From NCBI GenBank assembly GCA_022562295.1, contig JADFPO010000022.1, forward strand, positions 1-41,560: a stretch of DNA of 41,560 nucleotides, given 5' to 3'. Source of the stretch: Gemmatimonadota bacterium (GTDB taxonomy: Bacteria > Gemmatimonadota > Gemmatimonadetes > Gemmatimonadales > GWC2-71-9). A program made the position numbers and the translations under genes. The notes below the pieces were generated by a model. That model was not told the origin of the DNA. It did no database searches and worked only from the letters and a program-made list of their open reading frames with translations. Shown here one piece after another: positions 7,768 through 15,145 of this stretch. The stretch's first letter is position 1. Every line of letters starts with the position of its first letter.

Positions 7768-7898
7768 CCGCATCCGCCGACGCCGCAACCGTTCTTGCGG
7801 ATTTCCCACCGCGGTCGTATGCTGAAAATCTGAAAGAGACCATGGCGCACCAATCGGTGCGGTTCACTATAGTCTTGCTCACCACATAGGATGGCAAC

Positions 7899-8687
7899 AT
7901 GTCTACGGCTGTGTCAGAGGGAGAGCACCAACTGGAGGGACTCATCAAGGACGAAGTTCTCAGAATGTATGAGGAGGTAGCTCACCATCCTGAGAAAGAG
8001 TTTCATTTTTTCCACGGGCGTCGTGCAGCCGAGATGTTCGACTATGACAAGGATTGGTTGGATCGGTGCCCGGATGGGGCGGTTGCGTCGTTTGCCGGCG
8101 TCGGCAACCCGCACGAGCGGAGTCGTTTGGCGGAAGGCGAGACCGTTCTCGACCTGGGGAGCGGGGCGGGAATGGACAGCATCATAGCCGGCTGGCAGGT
8201 GGGTTCATCCGGCAAGGTTATCGGTGTCGACTTCAATCCCGAGATGCTCGACAAGGCTCGCACGCATGCGGCCGAGGCCGGAGTGACGCAAGTGGAGTTC
8301 CGTCAGGGCACGATGGAGGACATTCCAGAGGAGGATGAGAGTCTGAACGTGATTATCTCCAATGGCGTGGTTAATCTCTCCTTCCGCAAGCGTCGGGTCA
8401 TCGAGGAGATGTTTCGCGCCATCGCGCCGGGTGGCAGGGTATCGTTCACCGACATCGTCAGCGCGAGACCGTTGTCAGCCGGCGTGGTGAAGGATCCCAA
8501 GTTGTGGGCGAGCTGAATTGGCGGTGCTCTCCCGGAGGGAGAGATGTTCGAACTGCTCGATGCCGCAGGGTTCAAACGGGTGCGCTCGGCGGTCGTCCCC
8601 GGTTTCCGCTTCAGTAAGAACTCGACACGCGACGCCGCCGAGGAGTTCGGTGTCAAGGCGATCATGTTTACGGCGGACCGACCCTAG
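7899..8687 (+). CDS. SAM-dependent methyltransferase, probable selenoprotein (UGA at codon 206)
   Basis: A class I methyltransferase related to the ArsM/UbiE-like group. Residues ~85-130 hold the SAM site: VLDLGSGAGMDSIIAG, VIGVDFNPEMLDKAR, and later VEFRQGTMEDIP and IISNGVVNLS. Before it comes FHGRRAAEMFDYD...SFAGVGNP, typical of this subgroup. The frame meets TGA at 8514-8516, directly after KLWAS. The same frame then continues for 56 more codons (IGGALPEGEMFELLDAAGF...) to TAG at 8687, giving 262 residues, the normal family length. Relatives I recall have Cys at the UGA position (LW..C.(A/G)GAL). A hairpin fitting a bacterial SECIS follows. The alternative is a simple nonsense mutation, but the tail shows no further decay. 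Substrate unknown. Confidence 0.75.
8514..8543 (+). other. Candidate bacterial SECIS: UGA plus hairpin
   Basis: TGA at 8514-8516 is followed by CTCTCCC (8527-8533), loop GGA (8534-8536) and GGGAGAG (8537-8543), a perfect 7-bp stem. The loop begins 18 nt after the UGA and its first two bases are G. Known bacterial SECIS elements lie inside the coding frame just after the UGA, with the apical loop about 16-37 nt away and a G among the first loop bases; this one fits. Confidence 0.65.
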
Positions 8688-12808: not shown

Positions 12809-15145
12809 ATGCCGCTGAATCCCAAGAGTTCTCAACAGTCCTCCGACTTCATCCGCGCCATGGTGGCGGAGGATATGCGTACCGGCAAGTACGCCGGACG
12901 TGTGGTGACGCGCTTTCCGCCCGAGCCGAACGGCTACCTCCACATAGGGCACGCCAAGTCGATCTGCCTCAACTTCGGGATTGCGGAGGAAAACGAAGGC
13001 GGAGTCTGTCATCTGCGGTTCGATGACACCAATCCCGAATTGGAGGACATCAAGTACGCCGAGTCGATCCAGCACGATGTGCGGTGGCTCGGTTTCGATT
13101 GGCATGACCAGCTTTTCTTTGCATCGGACTACTTCGAGAGGCTTTATCGATATGCCGTCAAGCTCATCGAAGACGGCAACGCGTACGTCGACAGCCTGAG
13201 CGACGAAGAGATCCGAGAATACCGGGGCACGGTAACCGAACCCGGGCGCGAAAGCCCGTACCGCAACCGGTCGGTGCACGAGAACCTAGATCTGTTCCAA
13301 CGCATGCGGGCCGGCGAGTTCGAGGACGGCGCTCATGTGCTGCGCGCCAGGATCCGCATGGATGCGCCGAACATGGTGATGCGCGACCCGGTGCTCTACC
13401 GCATACGGCATGCATCGCATTACCGGACGGGAGACGAGTGGTGCGTTTATCCGCTGTACGATTTCACGCACTGTTTGTCGGACGCGATGGAAGACGTGAC
13501 GCATTCGCTTTGCTCGCTCGAGTTCAAGGACAGCCGCGAGCTGTATGACTGGGTGTTGGACGCCGCAGGAATCGAACGACCTCGCACCGAGCAAACGGAA
13601 TTTGCCAGACTCAATCTGGACTATACGGTTGTGAGCAAACGCAAGCTCGTGCGACTGGTCAATGAAGGTCACGTGAGAGGATGGGACGACCCGCGTTTGC
13701 CGACCATTGCCGGATTGCGGAGGCGGGGCGTGACACCCGAAGCCATCCGGCAGTTCTGCGATCTCATCGGCGTAGCGAAGGTCGATAGCCGGATCGACAT
13801 CGGTAAACTCGAGTTTTGCGTGCGGGACAACCTGAACAAACAAGTTCCGCGCGTCATGTGCGTGCTGCGTCCGCTGCGACTCGTCATCCTCAACTATCCG
13901 GAGGATCAAACGGAGGAGATCGACGCGCCATACTATCCGCACGATGTGCCGAAGGAGGGATCGCGCAAGGTTCCGTTTTCCCGCGTGCTGTATATCGAGC
14001 GCGACGACTTCCAAGAGGATCCGCCGAGCAAGTTCTTCCGGCTCGCACCGGGCCGCGAGGTGCGCCTGCGGTATGCGTACTTCGTGAAATGCGTTGACGT
14101 GGTGAAGGATGCCGACACCGGTGAGATCACGGAGATTCACTGCACCTACGATCCGGAGACAAAGGGAGGTGGGTCGGCTTCGGACGGCCGCAAGGTGAAG
14201 GGGACGTTGCATTGGGTCTCAGCCGGGCACTCGCTCCCAGCCGAGGTACGCTTGTACGACCGCCTGTTTGTTAAGGCCGATCCGGAGGAAACGGCCGGTG
14301 GCGAGGACTTCACGGCCCACCTGAATCCCCATTCCATGGTGACGTTGCGGGAAAGCCGCATCGAGCCGAGCGTTGCGGGCGATGCGCCTGGAACCAGATA
14401 CCAGTTCGAGCGTCAGGGGTACTTCTGCAGCGACTCCGTGGATTCCACGCCCGATGCCCTCGTGTTCAACCGCACAGTCGGGTTGCGCGACACCTGGGCG
14501 AAAGTAGCTGCGAAAGAGAGGGACCCCGTTGGGTCTGCGAAGAAGAAAGACGGCACTCGTCGTGCGAAGCATAAAACTTCGGATGCTCCGTCGGCGGTAG
14601 ACAGTGAGACGCCCGAACAATCGGCTGCGGTGGCGCGTTTCGTGGGGCAAGGCGTTGCGGCCGATGACGCCAGGATTCTGGCGCGGGATGAGGTGTTGTC
14701 GGGCATCTTCGATGAGGCCGTGAGGGTGCATTCGAATCCGGCGGCAGTAGCCGGTTGGGTCGTCAACGAGTTGCGGCGGGAGCTCAAACACACCGCAGCG
14801 ACGGATCTCCCGTTTACTGGCAAGCAGTTGGGGGCGCTCGCCGCGCTGGTCGATGACAAGACCATCTCCCGCACGATGGCGAAGGGCGTGTTTGCCGAGA
14901 TGGTCGAACGGGGTGGCGAGCCCGGTGATATCGTCGAGCGGAGAGGGTTGCGGCAACAGAGCGATCCGAGCGCGCTCGAGCCCATCATCGACAAGCTCAT
15001 CGCCGCGCATCAAGACAAGGTGGCCCAATACAAGGCGGGTAAGACGGGGCTACTCAGGTTTTTCGTGGGGCAGGTCATGAGGGAGACTGAGGGGAGGGCC
15101 AATCCTGCAGTCGTGAGCGAGTCGGTTCGCCAGAGGCTTTCGTAA
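12809..15145 (+). CDS. glnS: Glutaminyl-tRNA synthetase with C-terminal YqeY/GatB-like domain
   Basis: The 778-residue enzyme charges tRNA-Gln with glutamine. The class I signatures are clear: [17 protein letters not shown] (HIGH) at ~35-51, [11 protein letters not shown], the [22 protein letters not shown] block, and VVSKRKL (KMSKR equivalent) at ~275. The anticodon-binding beta-barrels follow. After a Lys/Arg-rich linker (~590) comes a ~170-residue helical domain like YqeY and the tail of GatB ([15 protein letters not shown] near the end). The same addition is known in Deinococcus GlnRS, where it aids tRNA binding. Having GlnRS suggests that this genome need not rely on the transamidation route for Gln-tRNA. 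It ends 1 nt before the next ATG, so it likely forms an operon with it. Confidence 0.97.

Follow-up and report, generated by a model that had tools for sequence, protein, structure and literature searches.

A probable selenoprotein family of ArsM-like methyltransferases in Gemmatimonadota with selenocysteine at one of three arsenic-ligand positions

Selenocysteine (Sec)-containing arsenite methyltransferases are an established table entry in PMC13188914 (citing Fomenko 2007) and are also found in the GOS survey (PMC2398784), and since such proteins have been catalogued, the basic claim of a Sec-containing ArsM is not new. An earlier note on the locus described here, made from its sequence alone, had been aware of no description of the exact case and had supposed that Sec-containing methyltransferases may be known from metagenomes; the case is indeed not undescribed in kind, as the two surveys above already list Sec arsenite methyltransferases. 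In the canonical enzyme CmArsM, arsenite takes three Cys ligands and methylarsenite two, with dimethylarsenite binding one, and both the C174A and C224A mutants are inactive (PMC3877260). The Sec of the ArsM fusion selenoproteins lies in a UxxG motif (PMC13188914), which is common to the protein presented here.

The gene lies in a window of 41,560 nucleotides, this being the whole stretch of DNA analysed (Gemmatimonadota bacterium, assembly GCA_022562295.1, contig JADFPO010000022.1), and has the following features:

7888..7891, + strand: AGGA, a likely ribosome-binding site judged from the sequence, 7 nt 5' of the ATG
7899..8687, + strand: gene of an ArsM-like SAM-dependent methyltransferase, very likely a selenoprotein, of 262 aa with Sec at codon 206 and TAG as stop
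8100..8102, + strand: codon 68, Val, at the position of CmArsM Cys72 in alignments
8364..8366, + strand: codon 156, Gly, at the position of CmArsM Cys174 in alignments
8514..8516, + strand: codon 206, UGA, very likely read as Sec, at the position of CmArsM Cys224 in alignments
8527..8543, + strand: bacterial SECIS-type hairpin of 7 bp with loop GGA, from folding and comparison

The frame opens with the ATG at 7899 and closes with the TAG at 8685-8687, its sole internal stop being the TGA at 8514-8516 directly after KLWAS, which confirms the interrupted 262-codon methyltransferase of the earlier note. GC3 is about equal upstream and downstream of the UGA (0.72 and 0.75 respectively). Reassignment of UGA in the genetic code was considered and rejected, since TGA terminates seven of the 14 other main window genes checked. 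The protein contains a SAM-binding class I methyltransferase domain, matching Methyltransf_31 with an E-value of 1.5e-30 in a profile search, and structure prediction from two sequences reached a pLDDT of only 39, too low to be used. Elsewhere in the window, positions 12809-15145 encode a glutamyl/glutaminyl-type tRNA synthetase of 778 aa with a C-terminal GatB/YqeY domain.

Among the 395 genomes of the phylum that were searched, ~50 carry a related gene interrupted by a TGA, and the family alignment comprises 54 members, including the window gene and one public contig (L023, a TGA form from a MAG labelled Acidobacteria). The codon-206 column holds TGA in 49 of the 54 members and Cys in five, with Cys also occupying this column in 20 of 20 canonical ArsM paralogues and in the five plasmid relatives checked (haloarchaeal and alphaproteobacterial), as the earlier note had expected of relatives. 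This alignment could have overturned the selenocysteine reading; no residue other than Sec or Cys was found among the family members, the canonical paralogues, or the five plasmid relatives. In the four rows checked (G043, G215, G166, and G107), the single TGA flagged in canonical ArsM genes proved to be nothing more than the terminal stop, and the viral contigs searched held no relatives of the methyltransferase.

The hairpin downstream of the UGA is formed by the exactly pairing strands CTCTCCC (8527-8533) and GGGAGAG (8537-8543) around the loop GGA (8534-8536), which begins 18 nt past the UGA; this is precisely the structure that had been read from the sequence, and folding recovers the identical 7 bp. 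All of the constraints given for bacterial SECIS elements in PMC13188914 are satisfied, namely a loop of 3–9 nt, a stem of 4–16 bp, a spacing of 16–37 nt, and a G in the first two loop positions, with an Rfam scan of the window returning no match. One sequence alone is weak evidence, since the z-score of the 51-nt stretch is only -1.7, and the hairpin within it is merely suggestive, since 13 of the 1108 TGAs on both strands of the window (1.2%) are followed, at the spacing of a SECIS element, by seven perfect base pairs closing a loop that has a G among its first two bases.

At the level of sequence, it is the comparison among genomes that is decisive, with the same TGA followed nearly always by the same hairpin in ~50 genomes. 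Pairing in the hairpin amounts to 95.9% across 45 distinct sequences, with three stem pairs showing double compensatory changes (for example, C-G to G-C in nine sequences) and the loop being GGA in 42. Sliding the partner strand by 1–3 bases lowers pairing to 51–73%, and the covariation score was reached by none of 500 shuffles, nor by any slid version, with the compensatory changes and codon counts outweighing the shuffle number because shuffling keeps the relatedness of the sequences. Compared with the rest of the same genes, a stem Ala codon is GCT in 45 of 49 cases (background 7%), a stem Gly codon is GGA in 37 of 37 (background 15%), and a stem Ala codon is GCA in 9 of 10 (background 7%); protein constraint does not explain the conservation of the hairpin or the choice of codons. 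The Cys relatives form just 1–4 of the seven pairs, and exceptions are presented by L054 and L055, which keep only three of the seven pairs, and by L060, in which the loop differs. That a Cys-type gene has suffered a nonsense mutation or was misread in sequencing, which a single genome alone could not exclude, is rendered extremely improbable by the recurrence of this TGA, together with a co-varying hairpin, in different genomes (49 family members).

The genome of the window carries the Sec genes that the earlier note had proposed to look for, with selA (513 bits), selD (372 bits), and the tRNA-Sec gene selC (74.6 bits, gathering score 47) all found, along with selB on contig C199 (301 bits for its first segment and 332 bits with the in-frame neighbour, cut-off 242). 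The selD of this genome (L019) is a selenoprotein gene too, with an in-frame TGA in GAG-U-ACK. A strong selA match is present in 47 of 50 TGA-form genomes versus 233 of 345 others (Fisher p = 2e-5, indicative only because the genomes are related); the TGA-form genomes without one (G131, G271, and G334) are all fragmented assemblies, and four of the five Cys-form genomes give no selA match. In G226, which is of the same genus and is the closest sampled relative, selA is present and no ortholog was seen, suggesting a patchy distribution through loss, transfer, or an assembly gap. The reading of the UGA as selenocysteine put forward in the earlier note is thus supported by the alignment column, the covariation of the hairpin, and the machinery of the genome, and codon 206 very likely encodes selenocysteine.

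ArsM enzymes are the best solved relatives of the protein, and alignment with them places Sec206 on CmArsM Cys224, Gly156 on Cys174, and Val68 on Cys72; this equivalence to Cys224 and the absence of the other two arsenic-binding Cys had been missed in the earlier note. Column 68 is Val, Thr, or Met in the family and column 156 is Gly in 54 of 54 members, with all 20 canonical paralogues having Cys in both columns, and the three arsenic-binding Cys of ArsM are represented in the window protein by Val68, Gly156, and Sec206. This branch of ArsM appears to have kept only the third arsenic-binding Cys, as Sec, or as Cys in some relatives. Three Sec forms lack any Cys beyond residue 12, one of these being a fragment missing its start. 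Furthermore, a FHFxxGR-type motif, of which His36, Phe37, and Gly40 are invariant and Arg41 is 98% conserved, replaces the Cys-rich N-terminal loop of the canonical paralogues. The tree splits the family from the canonical enzymes with support of 100/99, and inside the family two Sec clades each join a Cys clade with moderate support (93–94), indicating that Sec and Cys were probably interchanged more than once. We hold with high confidence that the window gene encodes a selenoprotein and that its family forms a clade separate from the three-Cys arsenite methyltransferases.

An ordinary ArsM detoxifying As(III), with one catalytic Cys exchanged for Sec, would account for the shared superfamily, for ArsM enzymes being the nearest solved structures, and for the NCBI labelling of Sec forms as arsenite methyltransferase, with canonical ArsM also slightly commoner in Sec-form genomes (41 of 50 versus 229 of 345, p = 0.02–0.03). 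However, two of the three arsenic ligands are absent family-wide, and mutation C174A kills both methylation steps in CmArsM (PMC3877260). The window protein additionally scores 211.8 bits against NF008823, under the arsenite-methyltransferase cut-off of 263, while a canonical three-Cys ArsM in the same genome (G000:C137) scores 363 bits, and we regard an ordinary ArsM as quite improbable. With two of the three arsenic-binding Cys lost, the substrate is probably not ordinary arsenite.

A one-ligand selenolate mechanism, in our assessment, is somewhat favoured by this anatomy. SelB with Sec-tRNA would decode the UGA at 8514-8516, aided by the hairpin at 8527-8543, and the selenolate of residue 206 would capture a soft, electrophilic substrate by a single bond to Se, beside the methyl group of SAM, with the other ligands of the substrate being small thiols, or none. 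The captured substrate would be methylated, and the product freed by small thiols or by a thiol partner outside the protein, since no internal relay via the ArsM cysteines is possible now that those Cys are gone. Binding of arsenite by three thiols in the manner of ArsM does not fit, as one selenolate remains, with dimethylarsenite being a plausible substrate since it needs one protein ligand only. Our best guess at the likeliest substrates is an already methylated or thiol-bound arsenical, a different soft metalloid, or a compound of thiol type. The broader proposal, of a widespread ArsM-fold family in which three thiols gave way to one selenolate, with a different substrate and no relay through ArsM Cys, we consider evenly balanced between right and wrong; such a substrate might be, for example, dimethylarsenite, a persulfide, or a metalloid bound to a thiol.

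A more specific role, as a third-step enzyme that follows the genome's canonical ArsM and turns dimethylarsenite into trimethylarsine, would suit the one-ligand anatomy and the binding of DMA(III) by one Cys (PMC3877260), as well as the modestly raised co-occurrence with canonical ArsM. This role is nevertheless unlikely, with nine of the 50 carriers having no canonical ArsM above the cut-off (many of these being incomplete assemblies), and no ars operon context seen.

Since no conserved neighbour or operon was found across the Sec forms, and none of the genes seen next to the window gene is an arsenic gene, the views on substrate given here rest on anatomy and on the neighbours of distant Cys relatives. 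An OsmC gene lies directly upstream in six of the seven haloarchaeal plasmid loci read (L114, L115, L118, L134, L135, and L136), and a CMD (carboxymuconolactone decarboxylase)/AhpD-like gene lies upstream in two haloarchaeal loci (L117 and L134). These neighbours, along with the fused ArsM/AhpD selenoprotein NF041537 being among the best matches, would suit a methyltransferase linked to thiol or peroxide redox of the OsmC/AhpD type, which might, for example, methylate the S or Se of a reactive thiol, a persulfide, or a related adduct. However, the Sec forms showed no OsmC/AhpD linkage, and the haloarchaeal relatives are only ~40% identical, such that we offer this redox-linked role tentatively, as a possibility. 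On a Chelatococcus plasmid (L116), the Cys form is preceded by a pair of genes annotated as sigma-70 and zf-HC2, with similar small genes seen by eye before Cys forms of the phylum (L061, L062, L070, and L071); LysR-, MBL/rhodanese-, or MFS-like genes were likewise seen by eye beside some Sec forms (L074, L028, L055, L054, and L090).

Standard annotation would end such genes at codon 205 or call them arsenite methyltransferase. Several independent lines of evidence for recoding instead point to a conserved selenoprotein in about one eighth of the sampled genomes of one phylum, which is predicted not to methylate arsenite in the usual way, a prediction that is directly testable. The family also provides a natural comparison between a methyltransferase with one Se ligand and one with three S ligands, together with the relatives that use Cys.

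The described Sec arsenite methyltransferase (NF008823/PRK11873) and the window protein share an ArsM-like fold family and a Sec in UxxG, however the window protein lies below the cut-off of this model and is missing the other two arsenic-binding Cys, the published Sec-ArsM being compared by description. Canonical ArsM enzymes (CmArsM, 4fr0 and 5evj; human AS3MT) belong to the same superfamily, with Sec206 aligned on CmArsM Cys224, but Cys72 and Cys174 are replaced by Val and Gly, and the Cys-rich loop by the FHFxxGR-type motif. The NCBI fusion models NF041537, NF041536, and NF047649, in which an ArsM-like domain is fused to AhpD, DUF2284, or UXPK-star in multi-Sec proteins, match the window protein with 209, 190, and 182 bits, near end-to-end over their methyltransferase part, with scores under the respective cut-offs of 510, 575, and 460. 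Unlike the fusion selenoproteins, the window protein stops after the methyltransferase domain (8687) and has one Sec, and the UXPK-star fusion model found nothing above its cut-off in 21 genomes of the phylum. The literature covered, which does not take in 2025 work on ArsM-fusion selenoproteins, contained no account of the other two arsenic ligands being lost. To the Sec-containing ArsM proteins already catalogued, the present analysis adds a separate, well-supported clade with a lone ligand, compared with the NCBI fusion models by profile score only.
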